32,102 nt of DNA from Candidatus Woesearchaeota archaeon CG11_big_fil_rev_8_21_14_0_20_43_8. GTDB taxonomy: Archaea; Nanobdellota; Nanobdellia; Woesearchaeales; CG08-08-20-14. How positions within the stretch are numbered: the first letter of the stretch is position 1; each line of letters begins with the position of its first letter. The translations under genes and the position numbers were made by a program. Shown here piece after piece: positions 1,726 to 12,962 of the stretch. The notes beneath the pieces are model-generated. The model made no database searches. It saw only the letters and a list, made by a program, of their open reading frames with translations, and was not told the origin of the DNA. Where the stretch lies: NCBI GenBank assembly GCA_002762705.1, contig PCVE01000041.1:1-32102 (forward strand), read 5' to 3'.

Positions 1726-3294
1726 TCAGGTGCCAATCATTGTCTCTTTTTTCGCTTCTTTGACCCTTACATGTTTTGTCTGCATCTTGCTTATGATCTG
1801 AGACATAAGGGCATCTGCTGGCAGTATCTTCTGATCCAACGGCACACAGAAATCACCAGATACTCTAGTCCTGTCTGCGGATATCGCTACGCCTGCTTCA
1901 GCTAACAATTCTATGTCGTTATAATTGTCTCCGATAGCAAGGACATCTGATCTTTTGAGACCAAGAAATGTGGTCAGTCTTTTCAATCCAACACCTTTGG
2001 TCTGATCCCAATTTATGCCGATATCATATGCTTCACCATTCCAGATAGAGTATAGGGGCGTGTGCTTTGCCATGATAAACTCCACATCATCGACACGGTC
2101 TGTCGCATGAATAGTTATGATGAATTCCTTTGGTTCAAATCCTTTTATCTTTGGATCGGATATCATCTGCAATTCCTTGTGGACATCGTTTAGCTTGTCA
2201 AAGCTATTGATGTGCTGATGTATCTGTCCTCTGAACCAGGTCGCGCTCCCATTCTCATATGTTATGCTGACATATTCAAGTATCTCGCGAAACATCTCCT
2301 GGAGCATCGTGAGGCTTCTGCCGCTGCTTATGTTTATCATGAATCCTAGATCATGGAGCTGTCTGATCTGGTCTATCTGTTTTCTAAGTATTTTCTTAGT
2401 CTCAAGTGTGGTGATATTGCCTGATTGCCTGATCTTTGTGCCTCGTGGGACAAGAACTCCATCGACATCGAATACGATGAGCTTGATATGAGCAAGTTCA
2501 GTCTCATCGAGCATCGAGATATCTTTGTCACAAATTGGTATATCGTGAGATTTGATCCATGAGCGTTCAGCTATCCTGAGTCGTTCTTTGGTTCCAGTAT
2601 CAAACCATTGGCCGTTGAAACGATACCCAGATAATCTCCCCATCTCTGCAAGTTTTCCAAATAGGTCTGTCTCGATCATCGATCTTTTTGCATCTGGAAG
2701 AAAATCGATGGCTGCGGGTTCTAATATATATAAGCCTGCATTTATCAGGTTGCTTGGCGCTTCTTCTTTTTTTGGTTTCTCTACAAAATATATTATCTTC
2801 TCATTGTCCATCGCGACAACACCATATTGGCTTGGGTCTTCGACTTCAGTGAGTGCGATAGTAGCAAGTGCGCCCGTCTTCTTATGTAGCTCATGCATCT
2901 TTCCTATGTCGATCTCCTTTAGTTCATCAGCATTGCACATGAGGAAAGTGCTGTCAAACCAAGGTCTTGCCATCCTAAGGGCACCTCCAGTCCCGAGTGG
3001 CTCTATCTCATCAATATAAGTTATTTTGACGCCAAAGGCTTTTCCATCACCAAAATATCTTTTGATCTGTTCAGGCAAATGATGGACACTTATGGCGATA
3101 TCTTTTATCCCGTTATTTCTGCACATATCTATTGTGTATTCCAGTATCGGCTTATTTTGCACTTTGAGCATCGGTTTTGGCGTCTTGTTTGTCAGTTCTT
3201 TTAGCCTTGTGCCAAATCCGCCTGCACTTATAAGAGCCTTTTTTATTCCTACATTATTTCCGTTATTTTTCATCATTTCAATCACATCCATCAT
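1726..3294 (-). CDS. Fusion protein: N-terminal sugar-1-phosphate nucleotidyltransferase plus C-terminal HAD (Cof/IIB-like) phosphatase
   Basis: N-term KALISAGGFGTRLKELTNKTPKPMLKVQNKPILEY...PLGTGGAL; C-term LIVFDVDGVLVPRG (HAD motif I) and IGDNYNDIELLAEAGVAI (HAD motif IV). Confidence 0.88.
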   Translation of the reverse strand: MMDVIEMMKNNGNNVGIKKALISAGGFGTRLKELTNKTPKPMLKVQNKPILEYTIDMCRNNGIKDIAISVHHLPEQIKRYFGDGKAFGVKITYIDEIEPLGTGGALRMARPWFDSTFLMCNADELKEIDIGKMHELHKKTGALATIALTEVEDPSQYGVVAMDNEKIIYFVEKPKKEEAPSNLINAGLYILEPAAIDFLPDAKRSMIETDLFGKLAEMGRLSGYRFNGQWFDTGTKERLRIAERSWIKSHDIPICDKDISMLDETELAHIKLIVFDVDGVLVPRGTKIRQSGNITTLETKKILRKQIDQIRQLHDLGFMINISSGRSLTMLQEMFREILEYVSITYENGSATWFRGQIHQHINSFDKLNDVHKELQMISDPKIKGFEPKEFIITIHATDRVDDVEFIMAKHTPLYSIWNGEAYDIGINWDQTKGVGLKRLTTFLGLKRSDVLAIGDNYNDIELLAEAGVAISADRTRVSGDFCVPLDQKILPADALMSQIISKMQTKHVRVKEAKKETMIGT

Positions 3295-3296
3295 TT

Positions 3297-3935
3297 CTAA
3301 ATGTCCTGCAGACCCATCGAACTCGGTATCTTCACTGCCCCTTCACGCGAGAAGACAGCTATCATGCTCCTTTTCTCGATGATTCGACCATTTGTTTTCT
3401 GTAATCTACATGATATCTCCCAGATTCCGGGTTTTGGCACTGATGCTGTTATCATCTCATTATCCTGAAATTCTTGGAAAGATATCTTGTTTGTCCCTTT
3501 TGCTTCCCAGATAAGATTTGATTCTTGCACACGTCGCTTTCTCTCCCATTCTGCGATGAAGCTCAGTCCTTCGCCATTGAGCAATCTTATGTCTGTGGAT
3601 TTTTTTTTATTTCGCCGATCAATAAGTGTATATCCATGTCTGTCTTTGCTATTGCAATCCACCAGATAGAGGTGCCCTTTCTGTAGATCAACTGTGAGCT
3701 GTCCTTTTTTTGTGATATGATTTTTCACAGTTTTTTTATTGTCCCGTTGTATGATATTCCATTCCACTGGTCCGCCCATATCTTCGCAGGTGAAATGATA
3801 TCTGTTCTTGATGAAATCAGTCTTGATCTGGATCTTTTGGTTCTCTTGCTTATCCAAATGTCTTTCATTGGCATCATTGTCCGCATTTCCCGTCAAAATA
3901 CCTTTCCAATAATCCAGATAAATCTTCATGTCCAT
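3297..3935 (-). CDS. Hypothetical protein, probably beta-rich, first gene of the glycan operon
   Basis: 212-aa ORF ending 2 nt before the next start; GGTGGTG SD-like sequence before the ATG; no recognised motif. Confidence 0.7.
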   Translation of the reverse strand: MDMKIYLDYWKGILTGNADNDANERHLDKQENQKIQIKTDFIKNRYHFTCEDMGGPVEWNIIQRDNKKTVKNHITKKGQLTVDLQKGHLYLVDCNSKDRHGYTLIDRRNKKKSTDIRLLNGEGLSFIAEWERKRRVQESNLIWEAKGTNKISFQEFQDNEMITASVPKPGIWEISCRLQKTNGRIIEKRSMIAVFSREGAVKIPSSMGLQDI

Positions 3936-4155
3936 TTTTTCACCACCATTTCAATTTTCACAGTACACCTGGATATTTGTTAAAACCTTTTGGAGGTTAT
4001 TTGTGAAAAACAAAAAAAAACAGATGATATATGTGTGGATTCGTAAATGAATGCAATTGCGACCATATTCAGGACATCCGGTGAATTTTTTGTTTTTGAG
4101 CAAAACATAAGACCGAAATTAATTAAATGAAGATTATTGTCAATATGATAACAAA

Positions 4156-5109
4156 TTGGATGGTGAAAAAGTGTTAGATGAAATAATAATTAGTCGGATA
4201 TTAAGTCGTAGAAAATTTGTGCAAGCTTCAGTATCTGTAGTCGCATTAACTGCTATTTTAGAGTGTGGAGATAAATCTAATCCCTATCGTGGAAATGATA
4301 TGGAGAAATGCAAAGATGCACATATCGATACAGCGAATATGTCTGGTCTGACAGAACAACTCGCACATGAGATCGATATGACTGTGTCCAAAGAATCCGG
4401 ATATAAAGGAGGTTGGTCAATCAAGATACTGGAATTGTGCGCACCAAATAAAAGCCATCTTGTGACTGGGGAAAATGAACCTTGCCTTGAGAGCAAAGAC
4501 CAAAAACAGTTGCTGACGACTTCTATAGATATATCTTGCAATGAGCCTCAAATTATATGGAAGAGAGATGATGCGATGACTACGATGGTCGATAATCAAG
4601 GCCATGTCAATTATATGGGACTTTACTTCGACGACAAGCCTGATTTGATGATAAATAATGTGGCTGGTGATGGCGGCAAAAGACAGCAATATGTTCGAAC
4701 TATTTCTGATCTTGGCATGGATCTCGATGGGATTTTTGATTGTGTTAATTGCACATCAGATCAGATGCAGAAGTGGCTTCGCGGCGAAAGCGACCCATTC
4801 AGCATCACGACGATACATAAGGTAAACACGGATGCTTTTGGAAATATGATATATGACGTCGGACTTTTCAGGGTGGATTTGGATGACGTGCGGACGCGTG
4901 TCCTCACAGCGCAACTTAATTTCGCCACTGGACTGCTGAAAAGGATTGATAGTCGATCAAAACTTGGCGGATTTTATTCAAAAATATTCGCCTGGATTCC
5001 TGGTACGGATGGTTTTGAAATAAAGAAATACGGTGTAGACACAGAGACGCAGAATGAATCACACCAATATATGCCAGAGCTTCTTGCCGAGAGTGGTCCG
5101 TATAAATGA
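4156..5109 (+). CDS. Hypothetical secreted protein with twin-arginine (Tat) signal; start may be GTG at 4171
   Basis: N-terminus LSRRKFVQASVSVVALTAILECG: SRRxF-type Tat motif plus hydrophobic core. The TTG start at 4156 is weak; GTG at 4171 has GGTG 5 nt upstream. Confidence 0.65.
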   Translation: MDGEKVLDEIIISRILSRRKFVQASVSVVALTAILECGDKSNPYRGNDMEKCKDAHIDTANMSGLTEQLAHEIDMTVSKESGYKGGWSIKILELCAPNKSHLVTGENEPCLESKDQKQLLTTSIDISCNEPQIIWKRDDAMTTMVDNQGHVNYMGLYFDDKPDLMINNVAGDGGKRQQYVRTISDLGMDLDGIFDCVNCTSDQMQKWLRGESDPFSITTIHKVNTDAFGNMIYDVGLFRVDLDDVRTRVLTAQLNFATGLLKRIDSRSKLGGFYSKIFAWIPGTDGFEIKKYGVDTETQNESHQYMPELLAESGPYK

Positions 5110-5723
5110 TGGTTTTATCTATTTTTTATTTTATGATCTATTATTTATGTGGCATTCATAATATACCTGATTCAACTATATTATCTGTGCATGTATGGAC
5201 TAAAGCTTTTTATTCGCATCTTTTTTTATTATTTAATGAGTCTGTATTGAAAATGATTAAGATGATAGTAGTGGATCGGTCACGTCTTTTTGATGTGCTA
5301 GAAACGTGTTCCGTCGATCTTAAGGAACCAATTTATAGATCTCTTTATGGAAAAAGTCTTGACACTTATGTTCAGACTGGATTCATGTATCCGCAATGTG
5401 GTGCGCTAGAAGCCGGCACTGGGGTTTTCTTCTCTTTGGATAGCCGATATGTGAAGGACATGAACCTAAGTTGCATCGTAATCGCTGATCTTGCTGATTT
5501 CCGGCTTGACAACAGTGTGATAGATACTAGAAATACAAGTTACCTGCCTGAATTTCGCCAAAGGACAATCGAACGGAAAAGTTTTTCCCATTCAGGGTAT
5601 GACATCTGGGATGAAGTTTGCAGACTCGACACATTGGTCGAACAGCATGGCGGATATATCATCTATACCCATAGAAAATCAATACACCGCGACCAGCTCA
5701 AGTATGAAGTGTGGATAGATTGA
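5106..5723 (+). CDS. Hypothetical protein, possibly translated from about 5251
   Basis: ATG overlaps the upstream stop (ATGATG). A TATA-like AAAGCTTTTTATT at about 5201-5213 and an internal ATG at 5251 suggest a shorter alternative product. Confidence 0.55.
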   Translation: MMVLSIFYFMIYYLCGIHNIPDSTILSVHVWTKAFYSHLFLLFNESVLKMIKMIVVDRSRLFDVLETCSVDLKEPIYRSLYGKSLDTYVQTGFMYPQCGALEAGTGVFFSLDSRYVKDMNLSCIVIADLADFRLDNSVIDTRNTSYLPEFRQRTIERKSFSHSGYDIWDEVCRLDTLVEQHGGYIIYTHRKSIHRDQLKYEVWID

Positions 5724-5735
5724 TCTGATTATAAT

Positions 5736-5786
5736 CTTGCATTTCCACTAGTCTATTGATTGGTGGCGATTTAGTGGAAATGCAAG
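5736..5786. repeat. Perfect 15-bp inverted repeat with 21-nt loop
   Basis: CTTGCATTTCCACTA (5736-5750) / TAGTGGAAATGCAAG (5772-5786). Confidence 0.9.
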
Positions 5787-5863
5787 GGTCCGAGAAAACG
5801 ACCCGGAGCAAAGCTAAATAGCTATCGGTTGTGACCAGTGGTGGTGTCGTTTTCGATTGACAA
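5736..5863. ncRNA. Candidate structured RNA, strand unresolved
   Basis: 15-bp hairpin followed by GAAAACGAC (5794-5802) / GTCGTTTTC (5846-5854) enclosing CCGGAGC / GCTATCGG, plus local hairpin GGGTC / GACCC. No ORF fits; region lies between convergent genes. Confidence 0.4.
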
Positions 5864-5921
5864 TCTGTCTTTCTTAGAAAGCATACGCCATCATTTGTGA
5901 AGGTCGGTGGAATGAAAGCAT

Positions 5922-6650
5922 TTAGGTCTTCACACCATAGTCGAAAGTAAAATACTGAATGTTCTCGGAGATCTTTTTTGCATCTGCTGCAGCATATTGG
6001 ATCGCATGCAGTATGTATGGGTCCTTGAACATCGCTTCTTTGTCAGCCTTGATCTTGTCTACAGACCTAAGGACAGCATCAAAATATTGGTCTGCATATT
6101 TTTTATATCTCCCTAGCTGCTTCTTTGTCCCGATCATATAGTTCTGCGCATGCTGCGCCACGCAGTGCCTGAATCCTTCATCGCTTCTTGGATGTTCATA
6201 TCCTGGATATCCGACCATACCGCCGACTGCTGTATCGATCGCGAAATTCCACATCTTCTCGAATGGGACCATCTCAGGCACCCAGGTGGATGAGTCGCCG
6301 ACTTTCTGTCCCAGGCCATTGTACAGGGCTTCGCTTTCTGGTTTCTTGTAATCGATCTTCTCGATGTCGATATCGACATGGATGCTTATGCCGCCATCGA
6401 ATCTCCCACAGCCCGCAGTCCACCATAATCCCGTTAGGAATTCTGCCAATCTGAAGATATTTCTTGTGTCTACCAGGTACCCTTCCAGTGCCTGGCCTGT
6501 GATGGTGAGATATTTTCCGGCTTTCTCTGTGATCTTATGTAACAATTCGCGGTTATATTGCCCGAAATCGTCGATATCTGTCTCAAGCTTCCTTCCTATG
6601 CAGTAAAATTCGATCTCTTTATCCTTGATATACTGTTCTAAGGTCTTCAT
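5922..6650 (-). CDS. Hypothetical protein
   Basis: Long ORF; the MKTLEQ start at 6650 is preferred because GGTGGT lies just upstream. No recognised family. Confidence 0.75.
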   Translation of the reverse strand: MKTLEQYIKDKEIEFYCIGRKLETDIDDFGQYNRELLHKITEKAGKYLTITGQALEGYLVDTRNIFRLAEFLTGLWWTAGCGRFDGGISIHVDIDIEKIDYKKPESEALYNGLGQKVGDSSTWVPEMVPFEKMWNFAIDTAVGGMVGYPGYEHPRSDEGFRHCVAQHAQNYMIGTKKQLGRYKKYADQYFDAVLRSVDKIKADKEAMFKDPYILHAIQYAAADAKKISENIQYFTFDYGVKT

Positions 6651-6757
6651 CAATACCACCCTAAACTAGAATGCTTTTAGGAATATTTATAATTATGGTA
6701 TATATTGATCAGATAAATCGCTATCGATGCAAATTTGAATCCGGGCACACTAATCGC

Positions 6758-8149
6758 TTAGCGATCCAGCTCTTCCTGATAGATCGAACAGACCTTTGCT
6801 GCGATCTTCTTTGGTATGGTATCAGATGTATGCAATGTCATAAATTCATTGTGGAGCTCATCTTCTCGTTCCATGGCTTCTTTTAAGAATTTGCGTTTGA
6901 ATTGTGAGATGAGATAGCCTTTCGCGCCTCTTTTATATGCGAGATAAAATGCATATAGCATCTCATCTCTTCCAAGACCTGAATAATCATATGGTTTCAT
7001 ATTGTTGTTGTCTTCATTGAAGATTGAAAAATAGCTTTTGTTCTCCTTTGTGAACATGTCTTTTCTGATGTTGATGCTTTTTGGGTCAATGCCAAGTGCT
7101 CTTATCATGACGTATATCCTTGCGCATTTTGAACATGAATGGCACCATCGAGAGTTCTTTGCGGTGTTTGAGTCTGCGAAACAGGACATCTGGTATTTCG
7201 CATAGGCAGGATAACGCTGATGCAAAATTTTTATGATCGCAAGTTCATGCAATGGTTCGACTAAAGACATGGCGGAGACCTGCTTTGTGAGTATATGGAG
7301 CATCTTGCTCAGTTCAAATGTCCATGGCTTTGACTGATCATATACGGGATTCATGCGAAATCCTTCTTCAGTCAGATAGTGTTCAGAACAACTGGCCTCA
7401 TTTCCGAAAACAATGTGCTTTGCATGAAAATAATGGGTGAAAGGAAGCATAAGGAGGGCATATTCAGTCAATTGCGTCGCCCAGCCGATGTCTGGCTTGC
7501 AGAGATTGAAATATTCCGGATATCTGGTCACTCCCAGCATATTCTCGATTCTGTATACTTCTTTTCCGAACTCTTTTGATAATTCATCTACAAGATCATT
7601 CTTATGCTTGATCTCATACATATTCTGGATCTCTTGTTTGGTCTCATCCATATATTTGATATCTGGCTCTTGGACATACACTAAAACAGGATCAAGTCCG
7701 ATCTCTTCAGAGACCGCAAAATTAAGGAGACTTTCCTTTCCAAATGTAAATAGGATGACTGATCGGTCTTTATTTCTTGGATTGTAATTTGGAAGTTTTA
7801 CCCTATGCGAATCGAATTTATAGTTCATGTTGATAAATGATCTTAACGATGGCAGATTGGGATTTCCAGCTGAGTCATTGCTAAAAGGGATGTAATTCAG
7901 TACAGGATTTAAGAGCAATGATTTCAAAACGGGTGAATTCATCTCATATCTGATATTCTCCTTGTCCATAAGTAAAGGCAATGTCTGTGTTGCAAGAAAG
8001 ATAAAGTTTTCAATAGTCTCTTTTTTTATTGGGCTTGGAAATCGGTCCCAGACTTCTTGGGGATAGGTTATATTGAAGAATTCTTTATTGACTTTCACTC
8101 GAAATCCATTCTTATTAATCTTATATGCTATATGTATATCTTCAATCAT
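6758..8149 (-). CDS. PP-loop ATPase-like protein (QueC/MurL-like architecture)
   Basis: VILFTFGKESLLNFAV resembles a modified SGGxDS PP-loop; WCHSCSKCARIYVMIRALG resembles the C-terminal Cys cluster of QueC/MurL-type proteins. TATA-like TTTTTAAACTTA upstream. Confidence 0.5.
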   Translation of the reverse strand: MIEDIHIAYKINKNGFRVKVNKEFFNITYPQEVWDRFPSPIKKETIENFIFLATQTLPLLMDKENIRYEMNSPVLKSLLLNPVLNYIPFSNDSAGNPNLPSLRSFINMNYKFDSHRVKLPNYNPRNKDRSVILFTFGKESLLNFAVSEEIGLDPVLVYVQEPDIKYMDETKQEIQNMYEIKHKNDLVDELSKEFGKEVYRIENMLGVTRYPEYFNLCKPDIGWATQLTEYALLMLPFTHYFHAKHIVFGNEASCSEHYLTEEGFRMNPVYDQSKPWTFELSKMLHILTKQVSAMSLVEPLHELAIIKILHQRYPAYAKYQMSCFADSNTAKNSRWCHSCSKCARIYVMIRALGIDPKSINIRKDMFTKENKSYFSIFNEDNNNMKPYDYSGLGRDEMLYAFYLAYKRGAKGYLISQFKRKFLKEAMEREDELHNEFMTLHTSDTIPKKIAAKVCSIYQEELDR

Positions 8150-10602: not shown

Positions 10603-11382
10603 TCAAAGACCGGCCGGGATATATGGTATTGTCTGCTTGAACTTGTTTTTTTCATGCATGTGGATGACGAACTCGACATCATCGCAAGAGAACCCCCTTT
10701 TGCTTATCGTATCATGATCTTCACGAAGATCAAGATGGCATCTTAGTATCTGGTCTACGATTGGCAGACCTATGTTTACTATGCGTGTTCTCATGATCTG
10801 ATCGGTCTTTCCAAGCCAGGTATCGATGGTCGGCATGCGGTCCTGGATATATTCTGGCGCACCGAGATACCCAGCAAAATGCCTAACTTGCGTCTTGAAA
10901 AGTACACGCAAGGGCTGGATGCTCGCATCAAGCGCATAGATCGGGAACTCTCCAAGTTCATATTCTGTGCGGTTCAAAGTACCAAAGACCATGGCATCGA
11001 GCTTATGTGAATAATCTAGGATAACTGCGCGCTGAACCCTTGAGACCATGTTCGTCATCTGTATAGTATTTCCTTTTTTCTGCCAGGCATCAAGCATAGG
11101 GCGGATGTCATCAATGTAACGATTGGAAAGCCCGATATCATCGCAGATCCTGTTGTATTCATCTGAGCTCCTGTCATGTTCATGATGCGGCAGATGCACA
11201 GCCAGTACATTATTCACACCGACTATCTCTCTTGCAAGATATAACGATGTAGTTGAATCAAGCCCAGTCGATGCACCAATGACTAGTTTCTCTATCCCTG
11301 CAAGTGAAAGATATCTGCGGGTGTTGCCGACACATGTAGAAAGGAAATTCTTTTCATCAAATCTAAGCAATTTCGGTATCAT
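10603..11382 (-). CDS. Divergent NAD synthase-like (NadE-like) N-type ATP pyrophosphatase
   Basis: VIGASTGLDSTTSLYLA (variant of SGGxDS), VFGTLNRTEYELGEF, FKTQVRHFAGYLGAPEYIQDRMPTIDTWLGKTDQ. Start at 11382 preferred: ATGA overlap with the upstream stop and GGTGATC SD. Confidence 0.75.
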   Translation of the reverse strand: MIPKLLRFDEKNFLSTCVGNTRRYLSLAGIEKLVIGASTGLDSTTSLYLAREIVGVNNVLAVHLPHHEHDRSSDEYNRICDDIGLSNRYIDDIRPMLDAWQKKGNTIQMTNMVSRVQRAVILDYSHKLDAMVFGTLNRTEYELGEFPIYALDASIQPLRVLFKTQVRHFAGYLGAPEYIQDRMPTIDTWLGKTDQIMRTRIVNIGLPIVDQILRCHLDLREDHDTISKRGFSCDDVEFVIHMHEKNKFKQTIPYIPAGL

Positions 11383-12017
11383 CTGATCACCTTCTTTATC
11401 AGCCACTTTATGTTCCGAAGTTGAATGGCATGATATATGTTACCATGAAGAACATATTCTTCGATTCCTCCCGTGTGTGACCTGAAATCTTTTCCATATC
11501 CATGCATCACCTGGAGCCTAAGATCTTGGAACATATCAACAAGCATTTGGTCATGCGTCGCGATTTTTACATTGAGATCGTTTTCTAGGCAATATCCAAC
11601 GCACTTGATGAAATTCTCACTGATATCATGGCATTGGCCTTTCGCATTGAACGCGCCTTTTACTATGCGTATATTCGGCTCTGCATTTTTAATGTTCTTG
11701 AGATCATCAATGGTCCTTTGGAGATAAGCCTGAAGACAGATCACAGAATCTGGACATTCAACTTTCACTCTTAAGTATGTCTCTATGGTCTCATCTACTA
11801 TGCTTTCATTTTGCATGTCAAATTCAAGCCTGATACTATATGTCTTAGACCGTTCTACTATTTCATCAAGACCATCTATCGGACAGCGCAAGGCTATCGC
11901 ACTCTTTAGTCCAAGCTTATTCATTGTTAAAAGACATGTTAGATAATCTTTTTTCATTGGATAGATTATATAATCGCCCGCTGTATCTAGCTTCTTAAGA
12001 TTTCTAGAAATCACCAT
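11379..12017 (-). CDS. Proline dehydrogenase-like TIM-barrel protein, short and divergent
   Basis: VICLQAYLQRTIDDL, IRIVKGAFNAKG, VKIATHDQMLVDMF, LQVMHGYGKDF follow the order of PRODH signatures. Confidence 0.7.
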   Translation of the reverse strand: MVISRNLKKLDTAGDYIIYPMKKDYLTCLLTMNKLGLKSAIALRCPIDGLDEIVERSKTYSIRLEFDMQNESIVDETIETYLRVKVECPDSVICLQAYLQRTIDDLKNIKNAEPNIRIVKGAFNAKGQCHDISENFIKCVGYCLENDLNVKIATHDQMLVDMFQDLRLQVMHGYGKDFRSHTGGIEEYVLHGNIYHAIQLRNIKWLIKKVIR

Positions 12018-12603
12018 TTTTGATCCTCACATATAATCCTGCGACTTCAGATTCAAGTTGTGAAACTGATCCTTCATTGTTGATGACATGATCTGGATTA
12101 CCGTTATTCCCCTGCAACTGTTTCTCGATTACATAGAGGGCCTGCTCATCTGTCAAAATAAAATCGTCACGTCTTTTCGCCCTATCCATAAGAAATTCAG
12201 CCTGTCTCTTGGTGGGCATCTGGATCTCAATTACCTTTTTGCAGTATCTATTCCACTCTCTTTTGTATAATTGTGCTGCTTCAAATATCGTGATTTCATT
12301 ATGTTCTTTTTCAAGTATCGGGATGATGCGTGGTTCAAGATATGAATCTGCGATTTCCCAGAAAGTCTCGATCAAATCCATCTTTTCCAACATGGTTTTC
12401 TTTAGTTCTGTTCGGTCAATCTTCCCAAGAGTGTCAAGTATCGAATCACCAAATAAACACAGGATTTCCTCTTTGAGGTCAACATATGCACCCTTTAGAT
12501 AGTCATCAGTCCGTATCAGTGTGGCACCGTGCATCTTAAACATCTCCGCGACAAGACTTTTTCCAGTGCAGATACCTCCAGTGAGTCCGTATAGCATAAA
12601 CAT
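12004..12603 (-). CDS. Dephospho-CoA kinase (bacterial CoaE)-like P-loop kinase
   Basis: YGLTGGICTGKSLVAEMF (Walker A), LFGDSILDTLGKIDRTELKK, Q-x-R-x-R-like KRQAEFLMDRAKRR, HVINNEGSVSQLESEV. Confidence 0.75.
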   Translation of the reverse strand: MFMLYGLTGGICTGKSLVAEMFKMHGATLIRTDDYLKGAYVDLKEEILCLFGDSILDTLGKIDRTELKKTMLEKMDLIETFWEIADSYLEPRIIPILEKEHNEITIFEAAQLYKREWNRYCKKVIEIQMPTKRQAEFLMDRAKRRDDFILTDEQALYVIEKQLQGNNGNPDHVINNEGSVSQLESEVAGLYVRIKNGDF

Positions 12604-12680
12604 AGTGTGTTCTCAACACTAATAAACCTTTCGTTTTTAAGGCCGTTAATTATTTAATTTGACAGAGATCACATCCACCT

Positions 12681-12962
12681 ATGAGAATTGGAGTGACATC
12701 AGAAAGCAAGATAAAGCTTGACGCAGTCAGGACTGTATTTCCTGGTGACACAATTCTTGGTTATAAGACAAATTCCAAAGTCGGCGAGCAACCAGTAGGG
12801 CATGATACAATAAATGGCGCCTTGAATCGCGCGCTTGATCTTGAATCAAAGACAAAAGACCCTCACCTGAGCCTTTCAGGAATACCTAGACAAAAATACA
12901 TCGAAGCATCATTAGATCTTCTCTGGAGATCATTCAGTGACAACCCTGGAATCTCAGAATAA
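12681..12962 (+). pseudogene. N-terminal part of a DUF84/YjjX-like (inosine/xanthosine triphosphatase) protein, truncated
   Basis: MRIGVTSESKIKLDAVRTVF...EQPVGHDTINGALNRALDLE matches the family N-terminus; the GxExG-containing half is absent in all frames downstream. Confidence 0.5.

Follow-up and report, generated by a model that had tools for sequence, protein, structure and literature searches.

The question raised by the locus described here is why relatives of three housekeeping enzymes are encoded by overlapping genes in an archaeal genome. In the window, i.e., the whole stretch of 32,102 nucleotides that was analyzed, three serial genes on the minus strand, read from 12603 to 10603, encode proteins that resemble dephospho-CoA kinase (CoaE), proline dehydrogenase (PRODH) and NAD synthetase (NadE). 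The archaeal content of the window comprises aIF1A and a Rad50-like protein. The window makes up one of the 143 contigs of the source genome (1.84 Mb), which is 78.8% complete and is the only member of its family among the genomes searched. Judged from their sequences, the three genes may be transcribed together as a small operon, each of them a paralogue with altered substrate specificity, possibly for one metabolite; this is the reading that we prefer at slightly less than even confidence.

The first gene of this putative operon encodes a CoaE-like P-loop kinase of 199 residues (12004–12603, minus strand). It overlaps by exactly 14 bp (12004–12017) the gene for a short PRODH-like protein of 212 residues (11379–12017, minus strand). 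The third open reading frame (ORF; 10603–11406, minus strand) encodes a NadE-like ligase and begins with a GTG at 11406, which yields a product of 267 residues, while an alternative ATG at 11382 yields 259 residues. The shorter product is the likelier one because this ATG overlaps the TGA stop codon of the PRODH-like gene in a 4-bp ATGA (11379–11382) and is preceded, at a distance of 2 nucleotides, by GGTGATC (11385–11391, minus strand), which resembles a Shine–Dalgarno sequence and may function as such; the ATGA overlap is conditional on a start at 11382 rather than at the GTG. Upstream of the operon, an AT-rich, TATA-like element (12620–12641, minus strand) is a candidate promoter. For all three genes, codon statistics assign the best coding score to the gene's own frame. 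The layout that had been proposed in an earlier, sequence-only reading, i.e., three overlapping minus-strand genes with overlaps of 14 bp and then a 4-bp ATGA, is borne out by the ORF coordinates and the sequence. Such tight translational overlap suggests that the three proteins are made together, and they may act on one metabolite.

The surroundings of these genes are varied. On the plus strand, an ORF of 93 residues (12681–12962) resembles the DUF84/NTPase family and covers only the N-terminal part of that family (about 160–170 residues); it is hemmed in by an aminotransferase gene and is probably a truncated remnant. On the minus strand, the C-terminal half of the ORF at 6758–8149 matches MurL (UDP-MurNAc-L-Ala-L-Glu epimerase) far below the curated cut-off, and the gene at 1726–3294 encodes a fusion protein that combines a sugar-1-phosphate nucleotidylyltransferase with a HAD-type phosphatase. 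Four successive ORFs at 3297–6659 match no Pfam or NCBIfam family at the thresholds used.

The weakest profile match among the three genes has an E-value of 9e-5 (PRODH-like protein, Pfam) and the strongest one of 2e-40 (NadE-like protein, NCBIfam), and the homology is therefore not due to chance. To describe the divergence, near-invariant residues were scored against aligned homologues, with leave-one-out scoring of the homologues as the yardstick; most homologues lose few such residues, and the worst loses 14.

The CoaE-like protein scores 60.3 bits with Pfam CoaE (PF01121; cut-off 27) and just misses the cut-off of the TIGR00152 equivalog (62.3 bits vs 65.55). It shares with CoaE the P-loop kinase family, the Walker A motif (GGICTGKS) and Asp33, whose counterpart in CoaE is catalytic (PMC2765170), and alignment with homologues shows that Arg64 is also kept. 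In contrast to CoaE, it lacks the residues that bind dephospho-CoA, where the His-Pro pair is replaced by Asp86-Ser87, a conserved Glu by Lys114 and the lid Arg by Phe137. In a docked model of Mycobacterium tuberculosis CoaE, dephospho-CoA is contacted by His88, Glu117 and Arg140 (PMC2765170), the columns of which hold Asp86, Lys114 and Phe137 here, if the numbering corresponds as we infer. In total, 12 of the 23 near-invariant residues are kept and 11 lost, compared to losses of 0–7 among homologues. The protein probably uses ATP to phosphorylate some small metabolite that carries a hydroxyl group and is not dephospho-CoA. By analogy, there is a strong precedent for such a CoaE homologue in TK1334 and TK2192 of Thermococcus kodakarensis (arCOG01045), which lack dephospho-CoA kinase activity and are of unknown function (PMC6650551); the CoaE-like protein is likewise probably not an enzyme of CoA synthesis.

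The PRODH-like protein falls below both of its family cut-offs, with 22.6 bits for Pfam Pro_dh (E 9e-5; below the cut-off of 27) and 54.8 bits for the NCBIfam model ProDh_Thermus (E 7.9e-15; below the cut-off of 500). Comparison with the proline dehydrogenases 4h6q, 5m42 and 2ekg (PF01619) shows that barrel residues on the flavin side are common to both, and that Asp67, Gln96, Arg117, Gly121, Ala153-Thr-His-Asp156, Tyr188 and Arg201 are kept. The protein differs from these enzymes in that the N-terminal helical arm is absent; a Thermus proline dehydrogenase without this arm is barely active (PMC6017737). It differs also at the substrate site. In PutA, the proline carboxylate is bound by the pair Arg555/Arg556, and a role of Tyr552 has likewise been described (PMC10651016). 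When PutA numbering is transferred by our own mapping, the first Arg of the pair is kept as Arg201 and the second is Asn202, the equivalent of Tyr552 is Ile198, and the Tyr of the KGAY motif is Phe123. The column of the catalytic Lys329 of PutA is occupied by Thr31, Leu29 or Arg44 depending on the alignment, i.e., its position is uncertain. Eighteen of 39 near-invariant residues are kept and 21 are lost, a part of these losses reflecting truncation or uncertain N-terminal alignment, while homologues lose 0–14. On inspection by eye, the sequence is compatible with a compact barrel of eight units; a single-sequence structure model (pLDDT 34.8) gives no support for that fold. We consider the protein to be, probably, a minimal barrel that binds a flavin and has lost the capacity to bind proline.

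The scores of the NadE-like protein are 117 bits for Pfam NAD_synthase (PF02540; E 9.9e-34, cut-off 21), 95.7 bits for TIGR00552 (cut-off 63.65) and 138.6 bits for PRK13980, below the cut-off of 255. In the predicted structure (pLDDT 87.1; best PDB match the NH3-dependent NAD synthetase 2e18, TM 0.83, E 4.2e-16), the NAD synthetase fold is kept, with confidence falling to 76 around residues 151–160 and to 55–72 across residues 191–210, which are the regions of altered motifs. Shared with NadE are also Ser46, Gly48, Asp50, Ser51, Thr143, Asn145, Glu148 and Lys171. The differences are found in the PP-loop, where SGGxDS has become STGLDS with loss of the second residue, a change seen in 0 of 64 aligned homologues, and in three further motifs, i.e., GYFTKYGD is replaced by GEFPIYALD, GQTDE by GKTDQ followed by an insertion of four residues, and HK by FK. 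The YFTKYGD and QTDE motifs, which we take to be linked to deamido-NAD binding, and the second residue of SGGxDS are recognizable in almost all of the 64 homologues. Half of the 58 near-invariant residues are kept (29) and half lost (29), compared to losses of 0–4 among homologues. The substrate that this ligase adenylates and subsequently amidates is probably a carboxylate different from the nicotinate of deamido-NAD, and the altered STGLDS loop could also mean that activity has been lost.

In all three proteins the losses fall largely at substrate sites and most of the residues that bind nucleotide or flavin are retained, where the division into a cofactor side and a substrate side was taken from the cited papers and general knowledge of the families and is not a statistical test. 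This unevenness suggests changed specificity rather than decay. As far as residue counts tell, such divergence is not shared by the genome as a whole, because the other two CoaE copies lose just 1 (contig C1) and 7 (contig C115) near-invariant residues; the genome's own second PRODH loses 12. The earlier description of each protein as a diverged relative of a housekeeping enzyme thus holds, given the family profile matches together with the motif and residue losses.

These additional copies are informative about the roles that the three genes need not fill. Two other CoaEs score above the TIGR00152 cut-off (156.7 and 116.9 bits). On C1, the gene for a bacterial-type CoaE overlaps one for CoaD, and this contig also carries what by eye is a likely archaeal-type peptidyl-tRNA hydrolase. 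The second CoaE, on C115 (L058:252-1786), is a diverged paralogue followed by an arginase/agmatinase-like ORF, with an overlap of about 46 bp when the latter is read from a TTG start, and is another CoaE with an unexpected partner. A second CoaD is found on C47, so that one archaeal genome harbors two bacterial-type CoaDs (L057:1345-1818 and L111:1471-1986), both above the TIGR01510 cut-off. A fuller PRODH of 383 residues, with the proline-binding Arg pair, is encoded on contig C24 next to a likely acetyl-CoA synthetase (by eye). Because of these two CoaEs and the second PRODH, the CoaE-like and PRODH-like proteins are probably not the housekeeping copies. For NadE the situation is different: no other NadE was found with a convincing score in the 78.8%-complete genome, and two of the weaker PP-loop matches resemble asparagine synthase and ThiI. 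The cell would thus seem not to need the CoaE-like and PRODH-like genes for housekeeping, which may not hold for the NadE-like gene. The proposal that the locus serves something other than CoA, proline and NAD metabolism is accordingly probably right for the first two proteins, given the other copies and the lost motifs, and is less secure for the sole NadE. Its premise that archaea as a rule rely on an unrelated GTP-dependent dephospho-CoA kinase does not fit this case; no such kinase (DUF359) was detected in the 78.8%-complete genome, which instead has bacterial-type CoaD and CoaE.

A conserved pathway would be expected to leave the same gene order in other genomes. Each of the three proteins, as well as a NadE alignment, was used as a query, with all three proteins searched against 100 relatives and viral contigs, the PRODH-like protein against plasmids, phages and a 380-genome sample of the phylum, and the PRODH-like and NadE-like proteins against 359 genomes of the order and GTDB contigs. 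None of the 100 relatives, the 359 order genomes and the genomes of the phylum sample showed the three-gene linkage, nor did the scans of GTDB and IMG/VR reveal it; the loci retrieved outside the window held 947 ORFs with 113 matches, and no locus had more than one of the three. There was no orthologue of the PRODH-like protein among the relatives, the order genomes, the phylum sample, GTDB and IMG/VR, the best PRODH matches in relatives, order and phylum sample scoring about 51 bits or less vs 476 for the protein itself. For the NadE-like protein, the best match in the order scored 93 bits vs 607. Searches of GTDB and of viral contigs likewise yielded no close relative, and the NadE alignment retrieved 32 NadEs from viral contigs, all without the partner genes. 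A mobile or viral origin of the operon was considered and found no support; PADLOC gave no defence match for any of the three proteins, and the matches in PHROGs were limited to NAD synthetase for the NadE-like protein and, weakly, a kinase for the CoaE-like one. We found no literature on a combination of CoaE, PRODH and NadE genes. The absent linkage counts against a widespread pathway and leaves a lineage-specific one possible, and the shared pathway of the sequence-only reading is thus not borne out by a search that was a weak test because genomes close to this family were absent from the sample.

Against this background, the three diverged genes may simply have become neighbors in a compact archaeal genome, with unrelated roles and no shared pathway. 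The absence of the linkage from every genome searched fits such a chance arrangement, as does a second overlapping gene pair in the window, GcvPA/GcvPB, which shows that overlap alone is not rare here. We nevertheless regard it as somewhat unlikely, since there are two consecutive overlaps and all three proteins show the same bias, with residues on the cofactor side retained and those on the substrate side lost. Far less probable is that these are pseudo-enzymes of a decaying operon that are losing their functions; many invariant residues are lost and the truncated DUF84 ORF next door points to decay nearby, but the three overlapping frames are intact with a coding signal, and the losses lie mainly outside the residues that bind nucleotide or flavin.

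A more specific alternative is that the NadE-like protein is the cell's fast-evolving NAD or NMN synthetase, the other two genes being passengers. Its status as the only NadE-family gene found in a genome that is 79% complete keeps NAD or NMN synthesis possible for this protein, which scores above the TIGR00552 cut-off and might work with an archaeal NMNAT-like protein encoded on contig C11. That protein falls below curated cut-offs (L112:781-1962) and carries an extra C-terminal region of ~200 residues without a family match. In Francisella, a NadE homologue has become an NMN synthetase (PMC3376133). However, this enzyme (3fiu) keeps SGGxDS, YFTKYGD and QTDE in recognizable form, as do almost all of the homologues, while the NadE-like protein has lost YFTKYGD, QTDE and the second SGGxDS residue. 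Furthermore, no NAPRTase was found in the genome and a QPRTase at most as a sub-threshold match, and the incomplete assembly may simply lack an ordinary NadE. Taken together, we consider the synthetase role improbable. The preferred reading remains that of paralogues with changed specificity: the operon is real and unusual, and its genes are probably neofunctionalised. That a kinase derived from CoaE, a minimal flavoenzyme derived from PRODH and an amidating ligase derived from NadE constitute an undescribed pathway, which would build or modify one small molecule or cofactor, is doubtful at present; a new pathway is possible, rests on one genome, and is itself conjecture.

What CoaE homologues do in archaea has yet to be settled (PMC6650551), and a CoaE paralogue encoded beside relatives of a redox enzyme and a ligase offers a concrete metabolic context in which such a kinase can be tested. 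Should the three proteins turn out to cooperate, theirs would be a new small-molecule route. If they do not, three housekeeping families would be found in one lineage apparently without their usual substrate sites.
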